In this document: positions 5,607-32,254 of the stretch, in pieces
Layout: each line of letters starts with the position of its first letter
How positions within the stretch are numbered: the stretch's first letter is position 1
From: Melioribacter roseus
GTDB lineage: Bacteria; Bacteroidota; Ignavibacteria; Ignavibacteriales; Melioribacteraceae
Assembly (NCBI GenBank): GCA_020722005.1
Contig: DYLP01000022.1
Span: 1 to 40,860 of the forward strand
Direction of reading: 5' to 3'
Length of the DNA stretch: 40,860 bases
Notes under the pieces: generated by a model
Seen by the model: only the letters and a program-made list of their open reading frames with translations
Told to the model about the DNA's origin: nothing
Databases searched by the model: none
Made by a program: the position numbers and the translations under genes

Positions 5607-7055
5607 ATGTCTAAAAAAATCTTTATGTTGATAATTGTCTCAATGTTAACTTATAGCATGAGTTGGGCTCAGAATTACAATGACGCTCTAAGGTTATCGG
5701 AGACAGATATAATAAGCGGTGCACGTTCTCTATCAATGGGCAATGCTTATACTGCATTGAGCAATGATTTTTCTGCAACTTTATTTAATCCCGCTGGTTT
5801 TGCGTTGATTAAGAAAAGCCAGTTTAACGGTTCATTGAACTATAATTTATTTGATAATAAATCTGAGTTTTTTAACAAAATCGATTCATACTCAAACGGT
5901 GCAACGAGACTAAGTCAATTCGGCGTTGTCTTTCCTTTCCCAACCTATCGTGGCAGTTTCGTCCTGGCGCTTGGCTATAATCAATTCAAGGATTATAATT
6001 ATACTGTCCGGTTCGACGGCTATAATGCCGGAAATAATTCTATGATACAGGATTTAACAAGTTATAATGACGATATTGCTTATTTGTTGGGACTCAGTTA
6101 TCCTGTGTTTGACAATAGCGATAACTATCTCTATGATGAAACACGTATTAATGGGGGATTAAATCAAAGCGGTAAAATTTTACAGGAAGGTAAACTTCAT
6201 AATTGGTCGCTTTCTGCCGCACTTGAAATCCAAAAGGATTTATTCTTTGGTATAACGTTCAATATTGTTGGTAGTGATTTCAGAAGAGATAGACAATACT
6301 GGGAAGAAGATTTGCAGGACAATTATCCGGCAGGATTTCTGCTCGATCCAGCCGAACCAGCAACGAGCGATTTCCAAACATTTTATCTTAATGATATTAT
6401 CAAATGGGATATCTCCGCGTGGAATCTAAATATCGGATTGCTTAGTAAACTCAATAAAAATCTGACAATCGGATTTGCAATTAAAACTCCGAGAAAATAT
6501 ACAATTAAGGAATCATATTTTGTTGACGCTTCCAGCGATTTTGGCAGCGGTACAAGTTTTTATCTTAATCCGCCAATTGAAAACAAGCTTGAGTACGAAA
6601 TTACTACACCTTATGAATTTTCTACCGGTGCCGCTTTTAATAGCAAAGGCTTTACTTTGTCTGCCGATGTGAAATTGATTGATTATTCACAGATGGAATT
6701 TGTATCTGGTCTCGATAGAGCTGACATAGAAAAGAACAACAGAGATATACAAGAATTTTTTGGCACTGTTTTTAATCTAAACTTCGGCCTGGAATATTAC
6801 ATTCCAAAAACAAATGTGTCCTTGCGAGGAGGATTTATTCTTATGCCTTCTCCATATAAGGACGACCCCTCTGATTACGACAAAAAATATCTAACTATGG
6901 GTATCGGTTACGAATCGAAAAATTTATCGATAGATCTGGCTTATGCCATGGGATGGTGGAAAGATATAGGTGATAATTATGGCTCGAATGTCTCCAGAAT
7001 TTATCAGGATATTTCACGAAACAATTTTGTCGTGGGATTAAAGTATAATTTCTGA
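5607..7055 (+). CDS. OmpP1/FadL-type outer-membrane transport protein
   Basis: The 482-residue protein has a signal peptide ending SWAQ (about 22) and then the GARSLSMGNAYTALSNDFSA...NPAGFA block that marks OmpP1/FadL/TodX barrels in this phylum. The remainder is a long series of amphipathic beta-strands ending in LKYNF, a typical barrel insertion signal. By family it would let hydrophobic compounds such as fatty acids or aromatic hydrocarbons cross the outer membrane; the actual substrate cannot be read from sequence. GGAGG is placed about six bases before ATG. It follows the aromatic-rich lipoprotein gene by 30 bases and is closed by an intrinsic terminator at 7083-7104. Confidence 0.85.
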   Translation: MSKKIFMLIIVSMLTYSMSWAQNYNDALRLSETDIISGARSLSMGNAYTALSNDFSATLFNPAGFALIKKSQFNGSLNYNLFDNKSEFFNKIDSYSNGATRLSQFGVVFPFPTYRGSFVLALGYNQFKDYNYTVRFDGYNAGNNSMIQDLTSYNDDIAYLLGLSYPVFDNSDNYLYDETRINGGLNQSGKILQEGKLHNWSLSAALEIQKDLFFGITFNIVGSDFRRDRQYWEEDLQDNYPAGFLLDPAEPATSDFQTFYLNDIIKWDISAWNLNIGLLSKLNKNLTIGFAIKTPRKYTIKESYFVDASSDFGSGTSFYLNPPIENKLEYEITTPYEFSTGAAFNSKGFTLSADVKLIDYSQMEFVSGLDRADIEKNNRDIQEFFGTVFNLNFGLEYYIPKTNVSLRGGFILMPSPYKDDPSDYDKKYLTMGIGYESKNLSIDLAYAMGWWKDIGDNYGSNVSRIYQDISRNNFVVGLKYNF

Positions 7056-12922: not shown

Positions 12923-13993
12923 ATGAGGGCATGCTTTATTGGCAGATATAATCACGAGTTTGTTACTGCACCAATTAAATATTCGAAAGCTCTCTACAAG
13001 CAGATTCGTGCCGACTATAGAGAGAGTATCTTTATTACATATTTCTTTGATTCAAGTAACAAATTCAAGAGGCTCTTGGGCAGCGAAACGATTGCTCCTG
13101 GTGTTTATAAATGCGGTATTATAATTATTATCTTAAAGTTGCTTAGATACAAACCAGCAGTAGTTCACTTCACTACTTTAGAAAGATTCGAAATTCCTCT
13201 TTTTATTATTTGCAAAATCTTAGGTATAAAAGTAATCTCTACATTGCACGGTTTGTTCTATAAAGAAACAGAAAATTTTAATAAAATAAACAGAGTTAAA
13301 GATTTGTTGCTTGAACGTACTGCAATAAAATTTTCTGACTTCCTGTTAATTTATTCCCAGTATCAAGCTTCAATGCTGATTAAAAAATATTTTCTGAAAC
13401 ACTCTAAAATTAAATATACTTACAACGGGGTCGACTCTTTTGAAAGAAAGTATTCTAAACCAGAATTCAAAAATGCACTCATGATTGTATTCTATAAAGG
13501 TTTTGGAAAAGATGACAGAGGATTAAATAAATTGATAGAAGTTCTTAAGTGCATAAAAGGAACACAATTAAATTTAACTGTACTTGGCAATTCGGATGGA
13601 TGCATTAATCATAGATTTGGTAATCTTACAATATATTATGCGGGATTTCTTAATGGCAATGAATTATCTGAATTATTAAACCAATCCCACCTTATAATTA
13701 AAATGCCCTTTTGGGAAACATTCTCGACCGTAGTTTTTGAAGCGATGTCCTATGGAGTTGTACCTGTGATACCGGATTCTATCGGTGTATCAAGATTTAT
13801 AACAAACGGGAAAGACGGGTTGAAATATCATACAACAAAACCTGAGGAACTGCAGGAGATAATTCAAAAAATAGTCGATGGTAGCTATGATTTGGCTAAA
13901 TTATCAGGGAATGCATTTAATAAGGCTAAAGAATTTATATGGGGAAAAATGGCAGAACATACAAAAGATATTTACGAAGAGTTACTAAGATGA
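12923..13993 (+). CDS. GT4-family glycosyltransferase
   Basis: The 356-residue product has the two-domain GT-B layout: an N-terminal acceptor half with the strands VISTLHGLF and FLLIYSQYQ, and a C-terminal nucleotide-sugar half with the retaining GT4 signature E-x7-E in PFWETFSTVVFEAMSYG followed by VVPVIPDSIG. The initial ATG follows 46 bases of non-coding sequence after the EnvC-like gene; no strong ribosome binding site is seen. Its stop overlaps the next glycosyltransferase start by four bases (ATGA). Together with its two neighbours it probably builds a surface polysaccharide or lipid-linked glycan at the inner membrane. Donor and acceptor sugars cannot be predicted. Confidence 0.85.
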   Translation: MRACFIGRYNHEFVTAPIKYSKALYKQIRADYRESIFITYFFDSSNKFKRLLGSETIAPGVYKCGIIIIILKLLRYKPAVVHFTTLERFEIPLFIICKILGIKVISTLHGLFYKETENFNKINRVKDLLLERTAIKFSDFLLIYSQYQASMLIKKYFLKHSKIKYTYNGVDSFERKYSKPEFKNALMIVFYKGFGKDDRGLNKLIEVLKCIKGTQLNLTVLGNSDGCINHRFGNLTIYYAGFLNGNELSELLNQSHLIIKMPFWETFSTVVFEAMSYGVVPVIPDSIGVSRFITNGKDGLKYHTTKPEELQEIIQKIVDGSYDLAKLSGNAFNKAKEFIWGKMAEHTKDIYEELLR

Positions 13994-15051
13994 GAATACT
14001 TCATTTTACACCATTTTTTACTTATGCAAGTGGTACAAATACCTATTTGCGGAATCTACTCATCGCATTAGAAAAATACGGTGCAGATGTAACTTTGCTG
14101 ACAAACAACCGTTTAGTATTAAGTGATATTACTTTGCAAAATATTGATACTGAAATTATTCAGTTCAAAACAGGTATAAGAAACATTTTTTATCTACCTA
14201 AAAATTTGATAGAGCTCTATTACAAGTTAACAAGCATGGATGTTGATGTCGTCCATACACATCACAGGTATCCCGAGCTGATTTCCACTATACTGAAAAA
14301 ACGATGTGAAAAAACTGTTACTACCATTCACAGTAAGGTTGATGGATTTAAGAAAATATCATTTCGATCGGATAGAATTCTAGTGCCATGCAAATTCCTG
14401 GCAGATTACCTAATAAGAAACTTCAACATTAATTCAAAGAAAATTCACGTCCTTTATAATTGCATTGAGCCGGAGTTGTATAACAAATCTAAATCTACCC
14501 ATCAAATTGAAAGGTCTATGCTGAATATTAAACCTGATGATATTGTATTTCTTTATTCCGGTCGAATTTGTAAAGAAAAAGGGATTGACTACTTATGTAA
14601 AGCCTTCAACGAGTTCAGTGAAAAAAAGAAAAATGTAAAATTAATTTTAATGGGAGATATTAAAGATAGGTCTTTGCTGAAGTATAGTTCCAGATTTGTG
14701 CTTTTTATCGGTTATACAAAAGACCCTGATGCATTTTATAAATTGGCAGACGTACTGATACATCCTTCTTATTATGACATACTGCCATATGCAGTGCTAG
14801 AAGCAGGATATTGGGGGAAGATTGTTTTAGCCTCCGATACCGGCGGTATACCGGAGATTATTAAAAACAATGAGAACGGTTTCATATTTAAAGCAGGCGA
14901 TAGCTCAGCATTGGGTAAATTATTGATGTACATTACAGACAATTTTGAAGATTGCCGTAGTATGGGTATTAAGCTTCAAAATGATATCAAGAAAATTACT
15001 TCGCCCGGTAAATATGTAAATGAACTGATGAAAATATATGAATCAATCTGA
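13990..15051 (+). CDS. GT4-family glycosyltransferase
   Basis: The 353-residue product starts at ATG 13990, which overlaps the previous TGA and gives a normal GT-B start (MRILHFTPFFTYASGTNTY, with the Gly-containing acceptor loop). An in-frame ATG at 13939 would add 17 basic residues from the upstream gene and is rejected. The C-terminal half shows FLYSGRICKEKG, VKLILMGD, HPSYYDILPYAVLEAG (first Glu of the E-x7-E replaced by Asp) and SDTGGIPEII, all typical of GT4 enzymes. It is translationally coupled to the preceding GT4 gene and 18 bases ahead of the GT26 gene. Successive sugar transfers in one glycan pathway is the natural reading. Confidence 0.87.
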   Translation: MRILHFTPFFTYASGTNTYLRNLLIALEKYGADVTLLTNNRLVLSDITLQNIDTEIIQFKTGIRNIFYLPKNLIELYYKLTSMDVDVVHTHHRYPELISTILKKRCEKTVTTIHSKVDGFKKISFRSDRILVPCKFLADYLIRNFNINSKKIHVLYNCIEPELYNKSKSTHQIERSMLNIKPDDIVFLYSGRICKEKGIDYLCKAFNEFSEKKKNVKLILMGDIKDRSLLKYSSRFVLFIGYTKDPDAFYKLADVLIHPSYYDILPYAVLEAGYWGKIVLASDTGGIPEIIKNNENGFIFKAGDSSALGKLLMYITDNFEDCRSMGIKLQNDIKKITSPGKYVNELMKIYESI

Positions 15052-15069: not shown

Positions 15070-15777
15070 ATGAAATTAATAATTAGCAACGAATCGATTA
15101 ATCTGATAACAAAAGAGAATGATTTCATGGCGATATTCACAGAAGAAATGAACAACCGAAAAGATAAAATCATTACGTACATAAATATGAATACGATTAA
15201 CTTGCTTTATAAAGACTATGAATTCCTTCGCTTAATATCGAAAGAATGTATCTGTATGGCTGAGGGAACTGGTATGTGGCTCTCCTTATATAAAAATTTA
15301 CGTACTAAAAGAATATTGTTTACAGATGTGCTGTTAAACGTCTTCAAAATATTAGGTAAAAAGGAAATGAAATTATATTATATCGGAGGAAACTATAATG
15401 TTGAACAGCTGCGTAAAAAAATTTACCCGCTGAAATTATCTGGATACGTAAATGGATATTGTGATAAATACGAATGGTCATCAATGGTAGAGGAATTAAA
15501 CAAAGCTGATTTAATATTGATCGGCATGGGACAGCCTCGCCAGGAAATTGTGGCAATTGAATTGAAGCGACTCTTAAAAGAAAAACATATAATCTGTTGT
15601 GGTGCATTTATGGATTATTATACAGGATTAACAAGAAGAGCTCCTTTATTGATGCGTAATTATGGATTGGAATGGCTCTATAGAATTTATAACAATCCAC
15701 GATTGTACTGGAAAAGATATTTAATTGGAATTCCAAAATTTATTTTCAGAACTAAAGACCTAATTTTTGAAAAGTAA
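15070..15777 (+). CDS. WecG/TagA/CpsF-type glycosyltransferase (GT26)
   Basis: The 235-residue product matches GT26: NMNTINL near 39-45 (Thr42), LILIGMGQPRQE (about 150-161), and the C-terminal GAFMDYYTGLTRRAP...GLEWLYR...RYLIG segment used for membrane association. Family members transfer N-acetylmannosamine-type sugars onto undecaprenyl-linked acceptors in O-antigen, enterobacterial common antigen or teichoic acid linkage synthesis. The residue aligned with the proposed catalytic Asp of TagA (usual ADG-x-G) is Glu65 here (AEGTG). It lies between two GT4 genes and the PorU-like peptidase gene, 18 bases from each. It probably finishes or commits a polyprenol-linked glycan. Confidence 0.88.
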   Translation: MKLIISNESINLITKENDFMAIFTEEMNNRKDKIITYINMNTINLLYKDYEFLRLISKECICMAEGTGMWLSLYKNLRTKRILFTDVLLNVFKILGKKEMKLYYIGGNYNVEQLRKKIYPLKLSGYVNGYCDKYEWSSMVEELNKADLILIGMGQPRQEIVAIELKRLLKEKHIICCGAFMDYYTGLTRRAPLLMRNYGLEWLYRIYNNPRLYWKRYLIGIPKFIFRTKDLIFEK

Positions 15778-15794: not shown

Positions 15795-18700
15795 ATGAAG
15801 CGACATTCGTTTATCTTTATCTTACTGCTACCATTCAGTATATTTTCACAAACAGATTATAATTATTACGATACAACAATTACATATTCAGATGAAGATT
15901 TATTGACATCTTTAGACGAATCGAAACCGGGCGCACCTTCATTAAAAAATATTACAGTTTTTATTGCATTAAAGAGTCCCGGTGAATCGGTGTCGGAAGT
16001 TAAAACGCAAATTTTAGAATTTAGTAGAACAAATCTTTTTAATATTAATCCTGCAATCAAACGTCTCAACGATAGCGTAATTACTTATCATAATTTGAAG
16101 CGTGTGTATGACGAATATATTACCGGCTCGGATTTTTATCCATCAACAATAACAAAATATGTGGGTAATGTGTACCTGTCAGGAAAATATTATGCAGCCC
16201 TTGAGGTTTCTCTCCAGCAGTATGAATGGAAAAGCAATACGATCAAAACATTTAATAAGGTTAAAATTACAGTGAAAACTAAAATACAAGGGATAACGGA
16301 AGACACTATCACTTCAAATAGAAGTAGATGGTATAATTACGGTGTAAATTATCTGAAATTCAAAGTTGGACAGGAAGGGATATACAGAATATACTACAAT
16401 GATTTGCTCAACATGGGAGTTAATATGACTTCGATTCAGTCCAATAAAATACAAATTTATAATTACGGTTTGCCTATCCCTATTTATGTTAACGACAATA
16501 ACGACGGTAAATTTGATGAAGGGGATTATATCGAATTTTATTCGGATATTAATAGGAATCACGACGACTATAAAAAGATAGTAGCAGAAGGCGAAGACTA
16601 CATCGATTATATGAACAGATATACGGATACTACTATTATCTGGCTGGCCTTCGAATCAGAGGAGGTTATGAGAATTAAACCAGTATATATCAGAAATAGT
16701 GAGATTACCGATACAGTCGATTATTCATTGAGAAAAATACATTACGAAGAAGATAATTTACTCTGGTACTACGATGCGGTTGAACCCCGTACTCAGCTTC
16801 CTTTCTGGCAGGAGCATAAGGTTTGGACGTGGAGAGCACTCGGTAGCAATAGTAAATTCAGTTTGAATCTGAATTTGAATAATTTAATTCAAGAAAAAGG
16901 GATTAAGGCTGAAGTACGCTTGATAAGTAATTCTTCAGATGTGAAAACCGAATCGCATAAAGCATATATTTCGCTGAATGATTCAGAGCACAGTGACACT
17001 CTCTCGTTCAACTACAGGCAAACCGTAAACTTAAAAGCGAATTTTAAGCGAGTAAATCCTTCTGACAATAAACTCACTATTGCCACACTGCCGACGAAGG
17101 CTTCGTTTCATCAGTCATTGATTGACTGGATCGACATCGAATATTATTCCCGAAATTATATCGAAAAACAGGAAAAGATTATAATAGATGAAAATATCAG
17201 TCAAGGTATTAAAGCAATAAAGATTAATTCAACATCAATAAATGAAAATCTTATAGCATATAAAATAGAACCGGAATTTTCAAAAATGGAATTAATAAAG
17301 AGTGGGAATGACAGTTATTATTTCGTAGATTCAATTTCTCCCGGGAATATCTATTTAATTACGTCGGAATCAAATATACAAAAACCAATTTTCTGCGGTG
17401 AAAGAAAATTCAGAAATTTATCTGAAGAATCGGTAGCTGATTACATCATTCTTACGCAAAAAGATTTACTCGAATCCGCAGAAGAATACAATTTCTTTTT
17501 AGAGAAAAACTATGGAATAAGTGTAAAAGTGGTTCTATCAGACGAAATTTATGATAACTATTCGTTCGGCTATCCTTTCCCTGAAGCCATAAAAGAATTT
17601 CTGAAAGAAACCTGTTCAAACAATATTAATAGTCCTCCTGAATATTTATTGATAATTGGGGATGCAAATTACGACTACAAAAATAAATTAAAATCTTCCA
17701 TATCTATCAAAAAGAAAAATATATTTCCCACCTACGGTTTCCCTGTGAGCGATAACTGGTTCGTAATCTGGAACGATTCTATCCCGATACCACAAATTGC
17801 AGTTGGCAGAATTCCAGCTGTAAATAATGAACAAGTACGATTCTATCTCGAAAAACACCGTCGATATTTGTTAAAGCCGTATGACAGCTGGAATAAAAGT
17901 TTTATGTTTTTTAGTGGAGGCGACCCATCCAAACCCGAGCAACTTTTGGCATTGAAAAATGCAAACGACAATGTATTTCGTATGTTTATTAACAACCCTC
18001 CGATTGAAGGGAAAGGAGCCCACTTTTATAAAACAATTAATCCATTCTCCAATTTCAGCAATATGACACCCGATTCGGTTCGCATTATAATCGAAGAAGG
18101 TGCTGTTTTAATTTCTTACATTGGTCACAGCGGTACACTGACATGGGACAACGGAATTCTGAGTGTGAACGACTTGATGAATAAATACGAAAACCGGTAT
18201 CCTCTTATTACGGATTTCGGATGCTCTACAGGTAAATTTGCCGAACCCGATATCATTTCGTTTGCTGAAGAATTCATTAATAATAATTTAGATGGACAGG
18301 CGATTGCGTATTTCGCTAATTCGAGCTGGGGATATCTTTCAACTTCTCTAAATTTCCCACCACTTTTCTACAATTATTTTCTCGACGATTCACTGATTTC
18401 CATTGGCAAGATTTTCAACGATGCTAAGAAAAAGTTAATTGAAAATAGCGGATTGAACGATGTAGTGAAAGTATTTTGTTACTGCAGTCATTTATTCGGC
18501 GACCCGATTATTAAAATAAGATTGCCTCAAAAACCTGATTTCGTTATTGGGTCGGAATCATTCTTGTTTCCTGAAAAAATTATTAAAGATAATCAAAAAA
18601 ATATAACTGTTAATTTGGTGTATTATAATTTTGGAAAAAGTATAGAAGATTCATATTCTGTAAAAGTCGAACATATATACAATAATGTATCGGAAACTAA

Positions 18701-20942
18701 AATTATAAAATGCTCAAAATACAAATACAAAAATGATATTAGTCTTGATGTCGATATTCAAAATCGGCCGGGCGAACATACATTAATTTGTACTATCGAC
18801 TGTTATAATGAAATAGATGAATATGACGAATCAAGTAATGAAACGATAATAAAGTTTAACGTTATTCCCTCCGATATACGTTTGCTTTCAGGAAGCAACT
18901 TATATTCAGGCTGGCGGGATACAATTGTATTTTTAACTCCACCTTACATTGAAAACGGCAAATTGGAAATCCAGCTATCAGACAATAAAACGTTTCAGGG
19001 GGCGGAAAAATTTATTATTCCTTTTAGCAAGGTTACTACCAAATTTTCTATCCCAAAAAGTTTTATGAATAATAGAATATGGCTCAGATATAAAAATGAG
19101 AAAGATACGATCTGGTCAGAAATTTATTCAATAGCACCACAACGGTACGACTGGATATTTTCAGAACCTCTCGACACAACGGTAACGAAAATTCATGGAT
19201 TGACCTATGATGCCGGAACGAAGAGCTGGTCATTTATTAAAAAAGAAAAAACATTAAAACTAGTTTCGGCAGGGCAAACTGCGGGTAGCATTGCATCTTT
19301 GCAAATTGATAACGTTGAATGTTTCCCGACAACATATTTCTGGGGTATAGCAGCAGCTGTAATTGACACTGCAGAGCTGGACGTAATAGATACAAAATAT
19401 TTTCTTTATCCATCGTCGAGCTCTGCGGAAGAACTAATAAGATTCGTCGATACTCTGAGCGATAAATATTATGTTGCAATGGCAGTTTGCGACGATGGTT
19501 ATCAATCGGTTATCGGCTATAAAGGTGGAAAGCCCGTAAGGGACGCAATAAAAAAATTGGGCAGTAAATTGATCGACAGCGTCGGCTATCGTGATTCCTG
19601 GTGCCTGTTAGGAAAAAAGGGCGAAGGTCAAAGACAAATTTATGAAGCATATAAAAGCCAGTATAATGATCTGGCCTCAGTAGTAATAAATAAAAAAGTA
19701 CTTGCTAAGTCAGGATATATTATAACTCCTGATATCGGCAAGTATTCATGCATAAGAAAAATTTATTACAGTTCGAATTACAGTAATGATTTGTATGCGC
19801 TTTGCGAAAATTATAATTATTCAATAGATACTCTGACTGTAGATACGTCCTCTGACTATCGAAATCGTTTAACCAATAAATACTACCAAAGCATCAATTT
19901 CTTTATAAAAGCTAATGCTGGAGATAAAGATATTCCGATGTTTCAATATGTTGCCGCAGATGTAGTTCTACCGCCAGAATTGGTAACTAATTATGAGACT
20001 ATTTCTAAAAGTGAAGATACTGTCTATGTCGGAGAAAATATAATTCTCTCTTTTGAATTATTAAATGCAGGAGAAGAAACCGCACGTGATTTTGATATTA
20101 AGATTGTAGTCAACGGCAATGATGAATATATAATAAATATCGATAGCATTAATTCGTATGAAGCAAAAAAAATTACAGCCACAATTGACACCGACAATTA
20201 TTACGGAGCAGTTGAATATGAAATTATTATTGACCCCGAAAATAAAATTAAAGAATTCTATAAAGATAATAACATGGCGAAGGGTAAATTTTTTGTCAAG
20301 CAGGAGAATGCAAAACAGGATGTATATATTCGTATAGACGGCTATGAAATTTACGACGGCGATTATATATCGCAAACGCCACTGATAGATATCGAGTTAT
20401 TTGACTATTCACACCGAAAACTAAGCGATACTTCATATATGAAAATATTCTTAAACGGGCAACGTGTAAATTATACGGGGAAAAACGTTCAATATAATTT
20501 CAGTGACAATAACCCTAAAATCAAAGTGACTTTTAATCCCACTTTGTTTGATGGTGAATACATTCTCGAAGTATTTGTTTATGATTTTTATAGCGATACA
20601 ACGAAACTTATAAAATCTTTGCGTTTCAAAATCGATAAAAAACCGCGAGTGCTGGATGTTTATAATTATCCAAATCCATTCGAGAGCGAGACTTACTTTA
20701 CATTTCGTTTAACACAAATTCCAGACGAGTTAAAGATCAAAATATTTACAGTTGCAGGACGTTTGATCAAAGAGATTGTTATCGATAGAAGTTCATTGAA
20801 ATACGACTTGAATAGAATCCTGTGGGATGGATATGACAATGACGGCAATATGCCTGCCAATGGCATTTATCTCTATAAAGTTATTTTGAATTATGGTGGC
20901 AAAATAGTTTCTGCATTAAATAAACTAGCAATATTAAGATAA
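15795..20942 (+). CDS. PorU-like C25 cysteine peptidase with CARDB, ILEI-like and sorting domains
   Basis: Very large secreted protein (1715 residues). It has a signal peptide (1-19) and an N-terminal beta-rich pro-region to about 540. A gingipain-type C25 domain (about 545-915) follows, with catalytic His778 in YIGHSGT and Cys810 in DFGCSTGKF, 32 residues apart as in gingipains. Next come a CARDB-like domain (about 925-1030), an ILEI/FAM3-like domain (about 1157-1278, with CDDG at 1232-1235 and LGSK...YRDSWCLLGKKG), a second CARDB-like domain (about 1395-1500), and a FlgD-like/T9SS sorting domain from NYPNPF (about 1624) to the end. In T9SS, PorU removes sorting domains and transfers cargo to anionic LPS; other C25 peptidases are cargo. 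The chain is much longer than Porphyromonas PorU (about 1150), so a separate surface peptidase is possible. GAGGCAGG lies before the ATG. Confidence 0.85.
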   Translation: MKRHSFIFILLLPFSIFSQTDYNYYDTTITYSDEDLLTSLDESKPGAPSLKNITVFIALKSPGESVSEVKTQILEFSRTNLFNINPAIKRLNDSVITYHNLKRVYDEYITGSDFYPSTITKYVGNVYLSGKYYAALEVSLQQYEWKSNTIKTFNKVKITVKTKIQGITEDTITSNRSRWYNYGVNYLKFKVGQEGIYRIYYNDLLNMGVNMTSIQSNKIQIYNYGLPIPIYVNDNNDGKFDEGDYIEFYSDINRNHDDYKKIVAEGEDYIDYMNRYTDTTIIWLAFESEEVMRIKPVYIRNSEITDTVDYSLRKIHYEEDNLLWYYDAVEPRTQLPFWQEHKVWTWRALGSNSKFSLNLNLNNLIQEKGIKAEVRLISNSSDVKTESHKAYISLNDSEHSDTLSFNYRQTVNLKANFKRVNPSDNKLTIATLPTKASFHQSLIDWIDIEYYSRNYIEKQEKIIIDENISQGIKAIKINSTSINENLIAYKIEPEFSKMELIKSGNDSYYFVDSISPGNIYLITSESNIQKPIFCGERKFRNLSEESVADYIILTQKDLLESAEEYNFFLEKNYGISVKVVLSDEIYDNYSFGYPFPEAIKEFLKETCSNNINSPPEYLLIIGDANYDYKNKLKSSISIKKKNIFPTYGFPVSDNWFVIWNDSIPIPQIAVGRIPAVNNEQVRFYLEKHRRYLLKPYDSWNKSFMFFSGGDPSKPEQLLALKNANDNVFRMFINNPPIEGKGAHFYKTINPFSNFSNMTPDSVRIIIEEGAVLISYIGHSGTLTWDNGILSVNDLMNKYENRYPLITDFGCSTGKFAEPDIISFAEEFINNNLDGQAIAYFANSSWGYLSTSLNFPPLFYNYFLDDSLISIGKIFNDAKKKLIENSGLNDVVKVFCYCSHLFGDPIIKIRLPQKPDFVIGSESFLFPEKIIKDNQKNITVNLVYYNFGKSIEDSYSVKVEHIYNNVSETKIIKCSKYKYKNDISLDVDIQNRPGEHTLICTIDCYNEIDEYDESSNETIIKFNVIPSDIRLLSGSNLYSGWRDTIVFLTPPYIENGKLEIQLSDNKTFQGAEKFIIPFSKVTTKFSIPKSFMNNRIWLRYKNEKDTIWSEIYSIAPQRYDWIFSEPLDTTVTKIHGLTYDAGTKSWSFIKKEKTLKLVSAGQTAGSIASLQIDNVECFPTTYFWGIAAAVIDTAELDVIDTKYFLYPSSSSAEELIRFVDTLSDKYYVAMAVCDDGYQSVIGYKGGKPVRDAIKKLGSKLIDSVGYRDSWCLLGKKGEGQRQIYEAYKSQYNDLASVVINKKVLAKSGYIITPDIGKYSCIRKIYYSSNYSNDLYALCENYNYSIDTLTVDTSSDYRNRLTNKYYQSINFFIKANAGDKDIPMFQYVAADVVLPPELVTNYETISKSEDTVYVGENIILSFELLNAGEETARDFDIKIVVNGNDEYIINIDSINSYEAKKITATIDTDNYYGAVEYEIIIDPENKIKEFYKDNNMAKGKFFVKQENAKQDVYIRIDGYEIYDGDYISQTPLIDIELFDYSHRKLSDTSYMKIFLNGQRVNYTGKNVQYNFSDNNPKIKVTFNPTLFDGEYILEVFVYDFYSDTTKLIKSLRFKIDKKPRVLDVYNYPNPFESETYFTFRLTQIPDELKIKIFTVAGRLIKEIVIDRSSLKYDLNRILWDGYDNDGNMPANGIYLYKVILNYGGKIVSALNKLAILR

Positions 20943-23879: not shown

Positions 23880-24968
23880 ATGTTCGAAATAATATTCTTG
23901 GTATCGTTGTCGTTTTATTTTGCCGAGCTGGTAATCTTTACAATTGGAGTACGAAAGGAGTGCCCTAAAAATTATGACGAACTACCTCCGATTACCGTAA
24001 TTGTAGCGGCAAGAAATGAAGAAGATAACATTATACCGTGTCTGCAAGCGCTCGATAAGTTGATATATCCTGACGATAAAATTGAAATTATAATAGTTAA
24101 CGATCATTCGACGGACAATACTGGAAATCTTATTGCAAATTTTATTGAAGGTAAAAATAAGTTCAAGTCAATAATTCCGAAGGAACAGATTGGGCATCTC
24201 AAGGGCAAAACGAATGCTCTTGCTAATGGCGTAAAAATTGCACGAGGGGAAATAATTCTAACAACCGATGCCGATTGCATAGTTTCGCCTACATGGGCAG
24301 AAACAATGGCTCGATATTACGACAGGGAGACGGGATTTGTCGGAGGTATTACCACACAAAAGGATGATACGATCTTTCAAGGTATGCAGGCAATCGATTT
24401 TGTATATCTTCTCACAATAGCCTCAGGAGCACAAAATCTGGGCAAACCTTTGAGTTGTATCGGTAATAATATGTCGTATCGTAAGCAGGCATATCTCGAT
24501 GCCGGAGGTTATGAAGGAATTCCTTTTTCCATTACTGAAGATTTTAATTTATTACGAGCTATTGACCGGTTGAATAAGTACAAAATTAAATATCCGCTTG
24601 ACCCTGGGGCGCTCGTAGTTTCGAAACCTTTGCCCGACTGGAAATCGATCTACTGGCAGAAAAAAAGATGGGGCGTCGGCGGCATGGAGAGCGATTTAAT
24701 TGGTTATCTCGTTTTTGTATGGGGATATTTGACCCATGCTTCAATTTTGCTTTCGCCTTTTTTCTTCTCGGCTAATGTTTTGTATTTGATTATCTTTAAG
24801 CTCGCTGCCGACTACTTTTTTATTTACCCTGTATACAAAAAACTGAAACTCAAGCTAAATATTATTCACTTTCTGGCTTTTGAAGTCTATCTTTCTTTTT
24901 ATGTTGTATTACTTCCCTTTATTGTACTACCCAATAGAAAAATCAAATGGAAAGGCAGAACATATTGA
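23880..24968 (+). CDS. GT2-family membrane glycosyltransferase
   Basis: The 362-residue product has an N-terminal membrane helix (about 3-23), a GT-A domain with VIVAARNEEDNI, VNDHSTD (74-79 region) and DAD at 130-132, then TED (219-221) as the likely catalytic base region and QKKRW at 260-264, the Q/RxxRW-type motif of processive GT2 enzymes. Two or three C-terminal membrane helices follow (about 272-350). The arrangement is like the hyaluronan/poly-N-acetylglucosamine synthase group and many membrane GT2 enzymes, so extrusion or lipid glycosylation at the inner membrane is likely. No ribosome binding site precedes ATG. The TGA overlaps the next gene's ATG. The exact product is unknown. Confidence 0.85.
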   Translation: MFEIIFLVSLSFYFAELVIFTIGVRKECPKNYDELPPITVIVAARNEEDNIIPCLQALDKLIYPDDKIEIIIVNDHSTDNTGNLIANFIEGKNKFKSIIPKEQIGHLKGKTNALANGVKIARGEIILTTDADCIVSPTWAETMARYYDRETGFVGGITTQKDDTIFQGMQAIDFVYLLTIASGAQNLGKPLSCIGNNMSYRKQAYLDAGGYEGIPFSITEDFNLLRAIDRLNKYKIKYPLDPGALVVSKPLPDWKSIYWQKKRWGVGGMESDLIGYLVFVWGYLTHASILLSPFFFSANVLYLIIFKLAADYFFIYPVYKKLKLKLNIIHFLAFEVYLSFYVVLLPFIVLPNRKIKWKGRTY

Positions 24969-25816
24969 TGATTAATCGTGAAAATATTATGAAGGAAATT
25001 ATTCCCGTAGTTCTATTAATTTTTGTAAATCTTTCATTAAAAGCTCAAGAAAATTTTCTGTTGTTTCCGTCTGAACTGAACGTTCAACCTTTTACTGCAA
25101 ATATACTGGAACCAAAACTCGGATTTCTCTTTCACACAACAAACAACGAACTACGTCTTGATATTGGTAATTCAGTTGATTTAGTAAGATGGGGTAGCGG
25201 TATGGAAAATTTTTCCGTAGGTGCCGACCTCTTTACTTTTACTCTTTTAAGAAGTGAATCCGATTTTCATTTTCCGGTTGACGCTATCGATTATCTCTTC
25301 GGAATAAACGCTTCATGGAAAGCTCGTCGTGGATTCAACAGCTACGGACTCCGTTTCCGTCTCAGTCACATCAGTGCCCATTTCGTGGACGGTCATTATG
25401 ATTGGCAAACTAATGACTGGCGCGAAGGTAGAAAACCTCGTGTATACAGCAGGGAGTTTATTGAGTTAATGCCGTTCTATAACATTAATTCACTGAGACT
25501 ATACGCAGGTTTTAGTTATCTTTTTCACGTCGACCCCAGTTATATTGGGAAAGATAATTATCAATTCGGTTTCGATTATTTTTACGACGGTTTTTTTAAG
25601 ACGAATTTATATCCCTTTATTGCGTATGATTTCAAATTGCAACATATCAATAAATATTCATCTACACATAATTTTATGGCAGGATTAAAATTTGGAAAAA
25701 GTAACGGTAAGGGCATAAGTTTGTATCTAAATTATTTTTCGGGTAATAATTTCCACGGAGAATACTTTGACAGTAGAGAAAATTATTTTTCTTTAGGATT
25801 TAATCTGGATTTATAA
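24968..25816 (+). CDS. DUF1207-like outer-membrane protein
   Basis: The product is 282 residues from ATG 24968, which overlaps the upstream TGA (TGATG). An in-frame ATG at 24989 gives a shorter, cleaner signal peptide (MKEIIPVVLL to SLKAQ) and is nearly as likely; ATG 24947 lies deeper in the GT2 gene. After the signal, LFPSELNVQPFTANILEPKLG, the GLRFRLSHISAHFVDG segment and strands ending in FNLDL resemble DUF1207 outer-membrane proteins, by memory of the pattern. The final Leu and strand periodicity suggest a barrel. It sits in a three-gene set with GT2 upstream and an M50 protease one base downstream. Function is unknown. Confidence 0.65.
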   Translation: MINRENIMKEIIPVVLLIFVNLSLKAQENFLLFPSELNVQPFTANILEPKLGFLFHTTNNELRLDIGNSVDLVRWGSGMENFSVGADLFTFTLLRSESDFHFPVDAIDYLFGINASWKARRGFNSYGLRFRLSHISAHFVDGHYDWQTNDWREGRKPRVYSREFIELMPFYNINSLRLYAGFSYLFHVDPSYIGKDNYQFGFDYFYDGFFKTNLYPFIAYDFKLQHINKYSSTHNFMAGLKFGKSNGKGISLYLNYFSGNNFHGEYFDSRENYFSLGFNLDL

Positions 25817-25817
25817 A

Positions 25818-26810
25818 ATGGAAGACGAAATTTACGACGTTTACGAACCAAGCTATACAAAAAAAGAAAAAAATAATTATCTGGTTTATATCGGCTTATT
25901 TGTAATCACTTTTATTACCACTCTTATAGCTGGTATGGAATGGACTACGGGTTCGATGGGACCTTACGAAATGACGGAATTATGGAAAGGTTTGCCGTAT
26001 GCCGTGTCAATACTTTTCATTTTGGCAACTCACGAGTTCGGTCACTATTTTGCTTCTGTTTATCACAGGGTAAAAGCGACACTGCCTTATTTTATTCCGT
26101 TTCCACCTATACCCGGATTTTTCAACTTCGGTACAATGGGCGCTGTAATCAAAACAAAGTCGCCAATTCCAGATAACAAAGCAATGTTTGATATAGGCGT
26201 GGCAGGACCCCTTGCTGGTTTTGTTGCGTGTCTCATTGTGTTAATTTACGGATATACGCATTTGCCGCCGGTTGATTATATTTTATCGATACACCCAGAT
26301 TATTTTTCACCAGATTACGGCAAAGGAGCAGTAAATCTGGAGTTCGGATCGACTCTGCTTTTTAATTTACTTCAAACGGTCTTTACAAAGCCGGGCGACT
26401 TTGTCCCACCGATGAGCGAAATTTATCATTACCCTTATCTGTGTGTCGGATGGTTCGGATTGTTTGTAACGGCAATGAATCTGATCCCTGTAGGACAACT
26501 GGACGGCGGTCATGTCATTTTTTCAATGTTCGGTTCGAAAATTCACGAAGCTGTTGCCAGCATTTCAATGTCCTCGCTGGTTATACTTGGCGTATTAGGA
26601 GTTGTCGATTCGGCGCTTTCGCTTAATCTCCATATTGGATGGTCTGGCTGGCTATTCTGGGCTATGATTCTTTATTTTATAATAAAAGTTAAACATCCAC
26701 CAGTTCCTTATTTTACTAAACTCGGTAAAGGCAGAATGATACTCGGTTATATTGCTATTTTGATTTTTATATTGTCTTTTTCTCCCACTCCGTTTATTAT
26801 TAGTTTTTAA
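25818..26810 (+). CDS. Site-2 protease (M50) family membrane metalloprotease
   Basis: The 330-residue polytopic membrane protein has the zinc motif HEFGH at 72-76 in a membrane helix (with Glu73 as catalytic base) and the third ligand in NLIPVGQLDGGH (LDG at 228-230). About seven hydrophobic segments are seen. It lacks the PDZ domain of RseP, and the order of motifs and FNFGTMGAVIKTK segment resemble the group that includes plant/cyanobacterial EGY-type proteases. Site-2 proteases cut membrane-embedded regulators such as anti-sigma factors or clear signal peptides; no such partner is adjacent. The ATG is one base after the DUF1207-like stop, so they are likely coupled. Confidence 0.9.
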   Translation: MEDEIYDVYEPSYTKKEKNNYLVYIGLFVITFITTLIAGMEWTTGSMGPYEMTELWKGLPYAVSILFILATHEFGHYFASVYHRVKATLPYFIPFPPIPGFFNFGTMGAVIKTKSPIPDNKAMFDIGVAGPLAGFVACLIVLIYGYTHLPPVDYILSIHPDYFSPDYGKGAVNLEFGSTLLFNLLQTVFTKPGDFVPPMSEIYHYPYLCVGWFGLFVTAMNLIPVGQLDGGHVIFSMFGSKIHEAVASISMSSLVILGVLGVVDSALSLNLHIGWSGWLFWAMILYFIIKVKHPPVPYFTKLGKGRMILGYIAILIFILSFSPTPFIISF

Positions 26811-26888
26811 GTCTACTTGACTATTAGAGAGAAGTATTCTATTTTTGGTTCAAAAAAGAGAGAAAAGGTTATAGAAAAACTGTTACTC

Positions 26889-26897
26889 TAAATTTTG
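26889..26897 (+). promoter_or_regulatory. Possible -7 box for the lipoprotein/propeller/PorV-type operon
   Basis: TAAATTTTG is a TAnnTTTG-like box with one extra spacer base, 28 bases before the ATG of the first gene. A ribosome binding site (AAGAGGT, 26910-26916) lies between them. The intergenic stretch of 114 bases separates this operon from the M50 gene. Confidence 0.3.
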
Positions 26898-26924
26898 TAA
26901 ATAGATACTTAAGAGGTAATTTCT

Positions 26925-27767
26925 ATGACCTTTTCTTTTTTTCACATAAAATTGTATCCTCTATTGATAATTCTTGTACTTTCATTATTTACCGCATGTA
27001 AAGATGAAATTCTTACCGGAATAATTGAATCGTCCCGAAATAGTTTGGTCATAAAAAAAATTATAGCACCCGAGTGGTTTGCTTACTCGCCAGGCGATTC
27101 GCTTTACAAATTTCAGGTTGAAATTAACAATTCAGATATAATAAAAGAATTTTGGGTACGATTACGACTGCACGACGGCTCAGAAACATTAATTGAGTAT
27201 TTGCCACTAAAAGACGATGGCAACCTTAAAAGCTCGGGAGACACTATTGCGGGCGACAATGTTTATTCAGGGTTATTGCCAATGAGTAAACAGTTTCCAG
27301 CAGGAAAGTATGTTATTGAAGGATTTGTTTTAGAGAAAAACGAGGCGTCTGTCGATGCAAAAAAGGTTTTTGCCTTCTACCTCGATTATACCAGCGAAAG
27401 CGAAAATTATTCTCCTGAGATTACCGAAGTTATTGTCCCTTCATCAGGAAGCGTAAATCAACGTATCACTTTATCTGTAAAGGTTTCCGATCCGAATGGA
27501 TTGAATGATATTATTGAGGTTTATTACGAATTGTATCGTCCGGACGGAACTCAAGTAAAAAACAGTCAGGGTATTACAAAATTTCCGATGTTCGACGATG
27601 GAAACAGCAATATAAACGGGGATGCAAACGCAGGGGATGGAGTCTATACGGTTTCCCTTACTTTCCCGGATGGGCAACCTTCAGGTAAGTGGCGGTTTGT
27701 ATTTGGAGCGCGCGATAGAGCCGGAGCAATTAGTCAACCTGTTGAATCCTATTTTATTCTTAATTAA
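26925..27767 (+). CDS. Lipoprotein with two Ig-like domains bearing DDGN...AGD motifs
   Basis: The 280-residue product has a lipoprotein signal with lipobox LFTAC (Cys25). Two similar beta-sandwich domains follow. Each ends in the same signature: DDGN...SGD..AGD-x-VY at 97-114 and DDGN...NGD..AGDGVY at 224-241, followed by a strand with a P-x-GKY/W...F pattern. The Asp/Asn-rich loop probably binds calcium. The pattern resembles the Ig-like domains of Bacteroidetes and Chlorobi surface proteins. It opens an operon whose next member, a sorting-domain propeller, starts 14 bases later. A role as outer-membrane anchor or partner for the neighbouring secreted protein is inference. AAGAGGT precedes ATG at a normal distance. 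Confidence 0.75.
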   Translation: MTFSFFHIKLYPLLIILVLSLFTACKDEILTGIIESSRNSLVIKKIIAPEWFAYSPGDSLYKFQVEINNSDIIKEFWVRLRLHDGSETLIEYLPLKDDGNLKSSGDTIAGDNVYSGLLPMSKQFPAGKYVIEGFVLEKNEASVDAKKVFAFYLDYTSESENYSPEITEVIVPSSGSVNQRITLSVKVSDPNGLNDIIEVYYELYRPDGTQVKNSQGITKFPMFDDGNSNINGDANAGDGVYTVSLTFPDGQPSGKWRFVFGARDRAGAISQPVESYFILN

Positions 27768-27781
27768 GCGATGGGTGCAAA

Positions 27782-29365
27782 ATGTTTTTTAATCGAAGAG
27801 GTAATAAATATCGTGTGGTTATAATTATTCTGGCATTCATGAGTGGGATAATAGATGCTCAACAGTTTTCGTATACATATAAACTTGAGAATGTTATATC
27901 ACAATCGCAGGGCAGCAATGAAGTGGAAAAGATATTGATTGTTAACGATACAATCTGGCTTGCCACTTCAAAAGGACTTAGTAAATCGGAAGATTACGGT
28001 AAAACATGGATAAATTACTATCGTCACGAAGCTTTCGGTGAAGAAGGAATATCCGCCATTGCTTATCATAACGGAACAATTTGGGCGGCTACATGGCATC
28101 TGGAAGACGCCGCTGGTTCGTCTGTACCATTTGGAACAGGACTTAGATATTCGCAAGACGGAGGCAAATCGTGGATTACCGTTGAACAACCTGTTGATGA
28201 CCCGGGCGATTCGTCCATTGTGTATGGAATTAATACCTTGCGAGCGCTGCCGATAACTGTGGCACACAATAATTTTGTGTATGATATTGCTTTTACTGGG
28301 GATGTTATCTGGATAGCATCTTTTGCAGGAGGTTTGCGTAAATCCGAAGATATGGGAAAAACCTGGAGCCGAGTCGTCCTTCCACCGGATTATCTCGACT
28401 CAATTAAACCAACAGACCGGCTCAATTTTTCGCTGCAACCAGTGGCAGGTAAATTCGGCAGCGAGTCGTATCTGAATCATCGAATTTTTTCGTTACTTGC
28501 AATCGACGATTCCACTCTATTTGTCGGCACTGCTGGTGGAATAAATAAAACCACAGACGGTGGTGCAAGCTGGAGAAAATTTAACCATACTAACCAGGAC
28601 AATCCAATTAGCGGAAATTTCATTCTGGAATTGTCGCACAATACTGCCGATAATTCCATATGGGCTGCCACCTGGCGTGCCGAAGGCAGTTCGGAATATT
28701 ATGGACTGAGCGTCTCCTTCGACGGGCAAAAGAATTGGGAGACTTATCTCGTAGATCAGAAAATTCTTGGAATCGACTTTAAATATTATGGCAACGGCAA
28801 CTACGACGTATTCGCAGCTACTGAGGACGGACTATTCAGATCGGATTACAGGCTCAATGATTGGATTGCTGCTCCGCAGATCTACGACAGCCATAGCGGA
28901 GTAGGTACGAATTATGTTAACCGCCGTTTCCGCTGTGTAAAAGTTTATCAAAAGAATAATAATACTGATATATGGATCGGTTCTCTCGATGGATTAATCA
29001 GGTTTAACGACGTCAATAACAATTGGGATGGAAACTGGAAGGTTTTTCTTGCCTCAGAAAAACTTGAATCAAATAACTCGTCCTACGCTTTTCCGAATCC
29101 TTTTTCGCCGGATAATGAAATCGTCCGAATCAAATATAACTTGACCGAACCTGCCGAAGTAACAATTCGGATATTTGATTTCGGGATGAATTTAGTTAAA
29201 ACGGTAATTCAGAACGCTCCCAGAAATTTGCAGGGCGATCAATTTGAAGTCTGGAACGGAAAAGATGAATCTGGAAATTTTGTACCAAATGGAGTCTACT
29301 TTTACAGAATTGACAAAGGGAATGACGGCGAGCCTCTCTTTGGTAAAATAATGGTGCTCAGATAA
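27782..29365 (+). CDS. Secreted Asp-box (BNR) propeller protein with T9SS sorting domain
   Basis: The 527-residue product has a signal peptide (1-27, IDAQ). Five Asp-box (S/T-x-D-x-G-x-T/S-W) units appear at about 69-76, 124-131, 188-195, 257-264 and 312-319, of the kind found in sialidases and VPS10-type propellers. This implies a beta-propeller over residues 30-430. No sialidase catalytic Arg triad or RIP motif is evident, so it is probably not a hydrolase. Residues about 437-527 (AFPNPFSP start, KIMVLR end) form a FlgD-like/T9SS sorting domain. It is flanked by a lipoprotein and two PorV/PorQ-type barrels in one operon. A surface-displayed scaffold or binding protein is the likely role. 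Confidence 0.85.
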   Translation: MFFNRRGNKYRVVIIILAFMSGIIDAQQFSYTYKLENVISQSQGSNEVEKILIVNDTIWLATSKGLSKSEDYGKTWINYYRHEAFGEEGISAIAYHNGTIWAATWHLEDAAGSSVPFGTGLRYSQDGGKSWITVEQPVDDPGDSSIVYGINTLRALPITVAHNNFVYDIAFTGDVIWIASFAGGLRKSEDMGKTWSRVVLPPDYLDSIKPTDRLNFSLQPVAGKFGSESYLNHRIFSLLAIDDSTLFVGTAGGINKTTDGGASWRKFNHTNQDNPISGNFILELSHNTADNSIWAATWRAEGSSEYYGLSVSFDGQKNWETYLVDQKILGIDFKYYGNGNYDVFAATEDGLFRSDYRLNDWIAAPQIYDSHSGVGTNYVNRRFRCVKVYQKNNNTDIWIGSLDGLIRFNDVNNNWDGNWKVFLASEKLESNNSSYAFPNPFSPDNEIVRIKYNLTEPAEVTIRIFDFGMNLVKTVIQNAPRNLQGDQFEVWNGKDESGNFVPNGVYFYRIDKGNDGEPLFGKIMVLR

Positions 29366-29381
29366 AAGTTAAGAGAGATAA

Positions 29382-30380
29382 ATGAAAAAAAATAAATTAA
29401 TCTTAATTACAGTACTTTTTATATATACCAGTCTATCGGCTCAATACACGGGACTTAACAGCAAAGCAGGTAGCTTTAGCCGTCTTGGATTTGGTGCAAG
29501 AGGTATGGGCATGGGAAATGCGATGTCTTCTGTAACGATTGGTAATCTAACTGCTTATTATAATCCTGCTGTTTCGGTTTTTCAGGAAAGCAGTTTATTT
29601 CAGGCTTCATACTCATTCCTTTCGTTAGACCGCTCGTTAAATTTTATTGGATTTACTAAAAAATTCGGTTTGGGAAAAATTGTATCACCCGAAGGGAAAG
29701 GAAAATTCAGGTCTTATGCCGGACTTAGTGTCGGACTTATAAATGCAGGCGTTTCAGATATTGATGTGAGGGACGATGCCGGTGAAAGAATTAAGAGTAT
29801 TTCTACATCCGAAAATCAATTCTTTGTCGCCGTCGCTAATAAGTTCTCAGAAAAATTGGCTTTAGGTGTTACGTTCAAATTTTATTACTATAGTTTGTAT
29901 GAAAACATGACGGCAACTTCGGTTGGAATTGATTTAGGAGCTATTTATTCTTTAACAAAAGAAATGAATCTATCGCTTGTTATTTCCGATTTGAACACTT
30001 CATACAAATGGGACTCGTCAAATATATATGGAGAGAGTGGTAGAAATACTACAGATAAATTTCCGCTCATTAAAAAAATAGGATTATCCTATAAACTTGA
30101 CGAACCCAATTTGCTATTTGCAGTTGAATGGCAGGGCAGTAATGCAAATTCGAATATTTTGCGGGGCGGAATTGAATATCAACCTATCGATAATTTATTC
30201 TTGCGGGGAGGACTCGACAGGTTTGAACTTTCCGAAAACGATATTCCTGTGCGTCCTTCGTTAGGTTTTTCATATCTTTACGGCATAAAAAATTTAAATC
30301 TGGGTATCAACTATGCATTTGTAGTTGAACCTTACTCGAATTCAGACCAACACATTATAGGAATTAATATACTTTTTTGA
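29382..30380 (+). CDS. PorV/PorQ-type outer-membrane barrel
   Basis: The 332-residue product has a signal peptide (1-20, LSAQ) and then KAGSFSRLGFGARGMGMGNAMSSV...AYYNPAV, the N-terminal signature of PorV and related UPF0164 barrels, which begins inside the barrel wall of FadL-like proteins. The rest is amphipathic beta-strands, ending in INILF. In T9SS, PorV carries cargo from the SprA translocon to the sortase. Here the gene directly follows a sorting-domain cargo gene (16 bases) and precedes a second family member (one base), which suggests a dedicated shuttle, by inference. Whether it is the housekeeping PorV of this organism cannot be told. Confidence 0.82.
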   Translation: MKKNKLILITVLFIYTSLSAQYTGLNSKAGSFSRLGFGARGMGMGNAMSSVTIGNLTAYYNPAVSVFQESSLFQASYSFLSLDRSLNFIGFTKKFGLGKIVSPEGKGKFRSYAGLSVGLINAGVSDIDVRDDAGERIKSISTSENQFFVAVANKFSEKLALGVTFKFYYYSLYENMTATSVGIDLGAIYSLTKEMNLSLVISDLNTSYKWDSSNIYGESGRNTTDKFPLIKKIGLSYKLDEPNLLFAVEWQGSNANSNILRGGIEYQPIDNLFLRGGLDRFELSENDIPVRPSLGFSYLYGIKNLNLGINYAFVVEPYSNSDQHIIGINILF

Positions 30381-30381
30381 C

Positions 30382-31272: not shown

Positions 31273-31289
31273 AAAAAACACGGTCGCTT

Positions 31290-32249: not shown

Positions 32250-32254
32250 ACGAC

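Follow-up and report, generated by a model that had tools for sequence, protein, structure and literature searches.

The window, by which we mean the whole stretch of 40,860 nucleotides that was analysed, carries a gene for a PorU2-like peptidase of family C25 behind three glycosyltransferase genes on the same strand (Table 1). The reading frame has the coordinates and the length given in the initial annotation. In the Pfam scan, Peptidase_C25 (PF01364) matched the window protein with 189 bits against a cut-off of 23, in agreement with the gingipain-type catalytic domain that the annotation had proposed. His778 and Cys810 showed no variation in 27 of 27 aligned relatives (the window protein counted among them) and, going by the C25 family match, they likely form the catalytic pair. 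The protein is also about 500 residues longer than PorU, as had been stated: the solved PorU chain has 1156 residues and the PorU of the same genome 1299.

Two CARDB domains had been described as flanking an ILEI domain in the C-terminal half of the chain. Both domains are real (the first, scanned alone, reached 27 bits, with a cut-off of 22.7), but neither touches the ILEI domain, from which they are separated by a beta-sandwich (residues about 1026–1117) on one side and a beta-rich stretch (about 1303–1400) on the other. Residues 1296–1400 did not match any Pfam family above its cut-off. The sorting domain proposed for the C-terminus scored above the cut-off of the type A family, which has 48 other over-cut-off matches elsewhere in the genome; FlgD_ig weakly matched residues 1629–1696 in the Pfam scan of the window protein. 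Scans for promoters and terminators gave a signal no better than that of shuffled sequence.

Table 1. Positions in the window of the peptidase gene, its domains and the genes preceding it
Feature	Position	Strand	Basis or remark
GT4-type glycosyltransferase	12923..13993	+	ORF overlaps the following GT4-type gene
GT4-type glycosyltransferase	13939..15051	+	18 nt upstream of the WecG-type gene
WecG/TagA/CpsF-family glycosyltransferase	15070..15777	+	PF03808; 17 nt upstream of the peptidase gene
PorU2-like C25 peptidase with FAM3/ILEI module, 1715 aa	15795..20942	+	ORF list; Pfam and NCBIfam matches
N-terminal region, weak Propeptide_C25 match	15795..16331	+	17.3 bits against a cut-off of 22
Peptidase_C25 catalytic domain, residues 550-907, with His778 and Cys810	17442..18515	+	Pfam match
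First CARDB domain segment, residues 913-1020	18531..18854	+	Pfam (match about 913-1017)
Fibronectin-III-like beta-sandwich, residues about 1026-1117	18870..19145	+	Predicted; structure matches only Z 7-8
FAM3/ILEI domain, residues 1150-1302 by predicted fold	19242..19700	+	Fold and profile; PF15711 at 1184-1276
Conserved beta-rich stretch following the FAM3 domain, residues 1303-1400	19701..19994	+	Structure prediction
Second CARDB domain, residues 1402-1495	19998..20279	+	Pfam
T9SS type A C-terminal sorting domain	20667..20903	+	TIGR04183, 26.9 bits, cut-off 23

The genome contains two C25 genes. The second one lies on contig 31 and encodes a PorU of 1299 aa (NF033707, 971 bits, cut-off 420); it is adjoined by a gene for PorV (274 bits, cut-off 250), and PorZ is encoded on contig 31 as well (343 bits, cut-off 260). 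Since the genome keeps its own PorU, PorV and PorZ elsewhere, the window protein comes in addition to them and does not replace them. Three proteins in the window resemble the PorV/PorQ family (5607–7055, 29382–30380 and 30382–31272); one of them scores above the family cut-off and none reaches the cut-off for PorV, PorV2 or PorQ. Any of the three could be a partner of the PorU2-like protein. The protein encoded at 48–2054 on the reverse strand resembles multihaem cytochromes and has a type A sorting domain of the T9SS; it is a possible surface electron-transfer cargo. A second envelope-glycan stretch extends from 23880 to 34373, with a GT2-like enzyme at 23880; here the PorV-family pair is followed by genes for a FemAB-like protein, a GT4-like enzyme and a heptosyltransferase-like enzyme.

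The FAM3/ILEI module

The initial annotation had recognised the ILEI/FAM3-like domain by eye and had proposed a PF15711 profile search and a fold comparison as checks. PF15711 matched residues 1184–1276 with 61.3 bits when the whole chain was scanned (cut-off 27, E = 1.3e-16). The E-value was 1.1e-17 when the segment alone was scanned, and the score in the genome search was 65.2 bits. The motifs AMAVCDDG, AIKKLGSK, GYRDSW and KKGEG start at residues 1228, 1251, 1264 and 1274, which is the order that had been read from the sequence. Among PDB sequences, the window chain matched FAM3C (8.7e-7, residues 1183–1286). A profile of the modules of 24 relatives, the window protein among them (profile A3), matched FAM3C (5.7e-25), FAM3B (4.8e-24), the POMGnT1 stem (1.8e-21), FAM3A (3.5e-21) and TMEM2 (9.4e-19), with the next-best match at only 0.043.

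An AlphaFold model of residues 1020–1400, made from 46 sequences, had a mean pLDDT of 89.2. When it was compared with the PDB by Foldseek, the top 20 rows consisted exclusively of FAM3C, FAM3B, FAM3A, POMGnT1 or TMEM2. VIA-align gave a Z of 19.9 for the POMGnT1 stem (rmsd 2.1 over 142 residues, matched range 1150–1302) and of 18.6 for FAM3C, the top unrelated chain being at 8.5. According to this model, residues 1150–1302 share the FAM3 beta-beta-alpha fold, and the domain called by eye is borne out by profile and predicted fold alike. The profile scores, the PDB matches and the predicted fold together rule out a chance resemblance as well as an absent PF15711 match.

According to PMC9802357, the POMGnT1 stem binds beta-linked GlcNAc via R129, D179 and R207, and FAM3A, FAM3C and a nematode FAM3-like domain also bind sugars. 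We placed this triad on the alignment of A3 with the PDB sequences by its spacing (intervals of 50 and 28 residues by our own count), and the three positions map to conserved RG, D-D/E and F/Y-R-D motifs. R129 corresponds to W1183 in the window protein, D179 to D1233 and R207 to R1266, and two of the three residues are kept. A complete POMGnT1-like GlcNAc triad is ruled out for the window protein, where W1183 replaces R129.

The same positions were compared among 94 unique modules, in which the aspartate is kept in 61 of 90 rows, the second arginine in 58 of 92 and the first arginine in 35 of 82. The full triad is present in 27 of the 82 complete rows and at least two of its residues in 60. 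In the sample of named genomes (best 80 of 272 stretches), the corresponding counts out of 81 rows were 52 for the aspartate, 64 for the second arginine and 13 for the first, with 10 full triads and 47 rows that keep at least two residues. The alignments suggest that the POMGnT1-like pocket is partly kept. As the window protein and most rows lack part of the triad, the ligand or its site may differ from that of POMGnT1.

Distribution and phylogeny of the architecture

The survey of C25 proteins that the initial annotation had also proposed found the same combination of domains across the class, and beyond it in the phylum. ILEI was matched at E ≤ 0.001 in 188 of 294 class genomes, 53 of them with more than one match and 135 with a single copy (our own count); the genome of the window has one. 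Among the 150 ILEI matches listed, most lie in frames of more than 1400 residues, the rest being shorter, down to 232. In the phylum set of 395 genomes, which overlaps the class set, ILEI was found in 101, a number inflated at its weak end by matches of the kind seen at locus L093 (7374–8234). The protein there is a CvfB-like S1 RNA-binding protein, and its weak ILEI match (22 bits, under the cut-off) is probably spurious.

From 52 extracted ILEI frames we picked 26, which together with the window protein gave a set of 27 full-length proteins. C25 was present in all 27, ILEI in 26 and CARDB in 20; the PorU2 and PorU models matched 27 of 27 at E ≤ 0.001, not necessarily above their cut-offs. 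The sample of named genomes (79 loci from the best 80 of 272 confirmed stretches) includes Ignavibacteria, Melioribacteraceae, Stygiobacter electus and others. The ILEI core was found in 63 of its 63 near-full loci, a count that shows persistence and not frequency, since ILEI-bearing proteins supplied the query and only the best matches were retained. A one-off fusion is ruled out by the class and phylum surveys and by the clade on the tree described below. An assembly chimera was rejected because independent genomes show the same architecture.

A frame of about 2400 aa at locus L095 (169–7365) has two ILEI matches, and tandem pairs of PorU2-like genes occur in several genomes (L048, L049, L082, L096). 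At L034 (4289–9440; genome G153, of the same genus), the ortholog is broken into three frames near window residues 1152 and 1370, which suggests an assembly error or decay of the gene. At L074 (7494–9251; G297), a 585-aa frame combines ILEI (79 bits) with a phosphatidylserine decarboxylase domain and may represent another pairing of the FAM3 fold with an envelope-building enzyme.

The label "PorU-like" of the initial annotation has to be narrowed: the protein falls in the separate clade that holds NCBI's PorU2. Against the PorU2 model NF052324, named "putative type IX secretion system sortase PorU2" by NCBI itself, the window protein scored 400.3 bits over residues 175–1015 (cut-off 450). Against the PorU model NF033707 it scored 293.3 bits over residues 185–913 (cut-off 420). 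As both scores are below the cut-offs, we call the protein PorU2-like and file it as neither equivalog. In a tree built by a quick method from the catalytic domain alone (58 rows, 361 columns), all 46 ILEI-bearing rows, over-cut-off PorU2 included, form one clade with an SH-aLRT support of 97. The window protein lies inside this clade and away from PorU, whose 4 rows are separated from it with a support of 99. Seven module-free C25 rows lie outside the clade; an eighth, L116, lies inside it and was flagged as a long branch. Since most ILEI rows had been chosen for carrying ILEI, the tree informs about clustering and not about frequency. It fits a single gain of the module near the base of the clade, with possible loss.

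Among 118 phylum genomes, the PorU2 cut-off was passed at 13 places in 12 genomes. We fetched nine of these frames (L103–L110, with two at L106), all of which lay outside the module profile A2. Eight came from genomes without a Pfam ILEI match, and the genome of L110 has one (5.2e-6). A2 matched 9 of 9 over nearly the full length, with E-values from 5.4e-72 to 1.5e-44 (calculated for a database size of one million); L109 scored weakly with the core profile A3 on its own (0.055). As for the remaining places, G319, G348 and G307 have direct Pfam ILEI matches and the frame of G381 has stops. A model of a distant PorU2, L103 (pLDDT 84.9), aligned with FAM3C at a Z of 15.2 and with POMGnT1 at 15.1, the top unrelated chain reaching 10.2. 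Its Foldseek list, when ordered by E-value, has complement chains above and among the FAM3 rows (TM about 0.16); when ranked by Z, the FAM3 rows come first. By the profiles and the L103 model, the module is present in strong PorU2 members, though often below Pfam's detection.

Neither A2 nor A3 found the module in four of four over-cut-off PorU proteins (L094, L120, L121 and L122, with 971–1331 bits against the PorU model), of which L094 comes from the genome of the window. That classical PorU also carries a FAM3 module is ruled out for these four.

Linkage to glycan genes

The WecG-type gene next to the peptidase gene is the sole PF03808 match of its genome, and PF03808 was found in 151 of 294 class genomes. 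We determined the distance between WecG-type and ILEI genes in the 80 class genomes that have both families among the matches listed (about 150 per family). Among these listed matches, the two genes lie within 12 kb of each other in 58 genomes and within 5 kb in 51. The WecG-type gene of the 58 linked genomes is upstream on the same strand in 47, upstream on the opposite strand in 8 and downstream in 3; in the 22 unlinked ones the two genes are further apart on one contig (2) or on separate contigs (20). As a control, again among the matches listed, a WecG-type gene within 13.5 kb was found at 12 of 12 places with PorU2-like genes (11 genomes) and at 0 of 12 PorU-length C25 genes, the latter being labelled by length, with two confirmed as PorU by profile.

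In the named loci with at least 2 kb of upstream sequence (n = 53; best 80 of 272 stretches), a WecG-type gene is located directly upstream in 35 of the 53, another glycosyltransferase gene in 7 and neither in 11; anywhere in the upstream 2–3 kb, WecG was found in 45.

Outside the class, BLAST gave no WecG match in 27 fetched loci. Nine flanking genes from nine outside-class loci were scanned for families. The gene directly upstream encodes PorV2 at L103 and L107, a GT4 enzyme at L084 and L089 and an acyltransferase at L108, while the downstream genes of L075 and L110 encode a TPR protein and a HAEPLYID protein. The upstream genes of L077 and L079 had no family in this initial scan; in the Pfam scan, the one at L079 matched an O-antigen ligase domain (54 bits, cut-off 31.7) and the one at L077 gave an O-antigen polymerase match below the threshold (23.6, cut-off 26.6). 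The upstream genes of L082, L083, L090, L091, L105 and L106 share a BLAST cluster with the PorV2 genes of L103 and L107.

Proposed role and relation to known systems

In Porphyromonas gingivalis, PorU joins cargo to A-LPS, which is delivered to it by PorZ, a carbohydrate-binding protein with two beta-propellers (PMC8545088). The linker in this organism is an unusual saccharide, according to PMC13086638. For the window protein we propose, with a probability of roughly 0.5, that it acts as a further sortase of the T9SS type, with a FAM3 module for recognising the acceptor glycan, and that the upstream glycosyltransferases help to build that glycan. This estimate is a joint one and includes the FAM3-fold module as an ancestral part of the PorU2-type sortase lineage. 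The C25 domain would cut the C-terminal sorting domain off a set of cargo proteins and transfer the cargo to a surface glycolipid, in a putative division of labour with PorU. The FAM3-fold module would hold a sugar of the acceptor glycan, whose nature may differ from that of the POMGnT1 ligand, and present it to the active site. It would thereby play in cis the part that PorZ plays in trans for classical PorU, while the enzymes encoded just upstream would contribute to building the acceptor glycan. We favour putative glycan binding because of the glycosyltransferase linkage and the partly conserved sugar-contact residues. Against this best reading, the upstream glycosyltransferases could serve LPS in general. 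Further points against it are the incomplete triad, the score below the PorU2 cut-off, the 22 of 80 class genomes and 11 of 53 named loci that lack the close linkage, and the lack of a WecG match in the 27 loci fetched outside the class. It is also conceivable, at somewhat less than even odds, that PorU2 is a phylum-wide second sortase with its own FAM3-fold lectin, with PorV2 or a dedicated WecG-type pathway, with a separate cargo set and with a glycan distinct from classical A-LPS.

The module might instead bind no sugar and serve as a structural spacer or for dimerisation within a PorU2-type sortase, the acceptor being recognised elsewhere. R129 is lost in the window and kept in 13 of 81 rows from named genomes (best 80 of 272), and an ILEI dimer structure of FAM3C has been solved according to its PDB title (domain-swapped according to the title of the reference). 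In addition, L111, a C25 relative outside the ILEI clade, has other sequence in the slot of the module with both flanks kept. We nevertheless consider a mere spacer unlikely: by conservation, the equivalents of D179 and R207 rank 23rd and 29th among 233 columns (R129 only 71st), the fold is kept by the clade as far as tested, and there is the linkage to glycan genes. At L111 (1427–7138; G079), the flanks are kept at profile positions 10–142 and 289–395, with about 250 other residues between them. This slot sequence has no Pfam or PDB sequence match; by eye it resembles beta-propeller repeats, and PorZ is likewise a propeller protein.

C25 proteases can be T9SS cargo, and the type A sorting domain of the window protein is of the kind seen in the 48 other over-cut-off matches of the genome. 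The protein could also be a gingipain-like cargo of the T9SS, a surface protease of the ordinary secreted kind, with the FAM3 module as an adhesin for an environmental polysaccharide. However, its matches to the PorU2 and PorU models run well past the peptidase domain (residues 175–1015 for NF052324), ILEI is single-copy here and in 135 of 188 class genomes with an ILEI match (our own count), and many loci are linked to glycan genes or PorV2, unlike variable cargo. We regard this explanation as rather improbable. That the module binds a peptide or domain of particular cargo proteins and not a glycan seems very doubtful to us: it sits in one chain with the catalytic domain and has the full triad in only a third of the rows, but the same-fold proteins with a ligand reported in PMC9802357 and PMC9437275 bind sugars, and the glycan-gene linkage speaks against it as well.

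If PorU2 is indeed a phylum-wide second sortase with its own lectin, FAM3/POMGnT1-type sugar-binding modules would be an old glycan-handling fold common to bacteria and animals. How T9SS sortases choose and hold their acceptor is known mainly from one organism, with PorZ acting in trans. Where the FAM3-fold module is part of the sortase chain itself, and its gene often adjoins others that may build the glycan, single domains suffice to test how the acceptor is recognised. The animal FAM3/POMGnT1 fold also gains a large set of bacterial relatives with a link to glycans. Catalogue entries already exist for C25 peptidases, for PF15711 and for PorU2 as a putative sortase, and database entries that label such proteins as ILEI-domain proteins presumably exist. 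In a literature search whose scope excluded preprints and most subscription journals, we found no paper on the combination of C25 and FAM3, on how it arose or on its proximity to glycan genes. An apparent mention of PorV2 in PMC10994853 is "PorV" followed by a citation number. Neither a second PorU nor a bacterial FAM3 domain is named in the available portions of PMC8564354 and PMC8478517.

Among the known systems, PorU2 (NF052324) is like the window protein in its N-terminal and catalytic architecture, its clade and the module, which was found in 9 of 9 strong members. The PorU2 model ends at the equivalent of window residue 1015, before the FAM3 module; the window protein is below its cut-off of 450, and in the class the neighbours are usually glycosyltransferases rather than PorV2. 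PorU of P. gingivalis (PDB 6za2; NF033707) aligns with the window protein in the C25 domain and the C-terminal region, but with its 1156 residues it is 559 residues shorter and belongs to a separate clade. The POMGnT1 stem and FAM3A/B/C (PF15711) have the fold predicted for the window module (Z 18–20), with detectable sequence homology. In contrast to them, the window module is embedded in a bacterial sortase-like protease and has two of the three sugar-contact residues. CBM_1 of the streptococcal phage Tal protein has the POMGnT1-stem fold and is interpreted by its authors as a carbohydrate-binding module (PMC9437275). It belongs to an adhesin, not a peptidase, and keeps the equivalents of R129 and D179, whereas the window module keeps those of D179 and R207. 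PorZ, finally, is like the proposed module in being a glycan-binding partner of a C25 sortase (PMC8545088); unlike the built-in FAM3 module, it is a separate beta-propeller protein that acts in trans.
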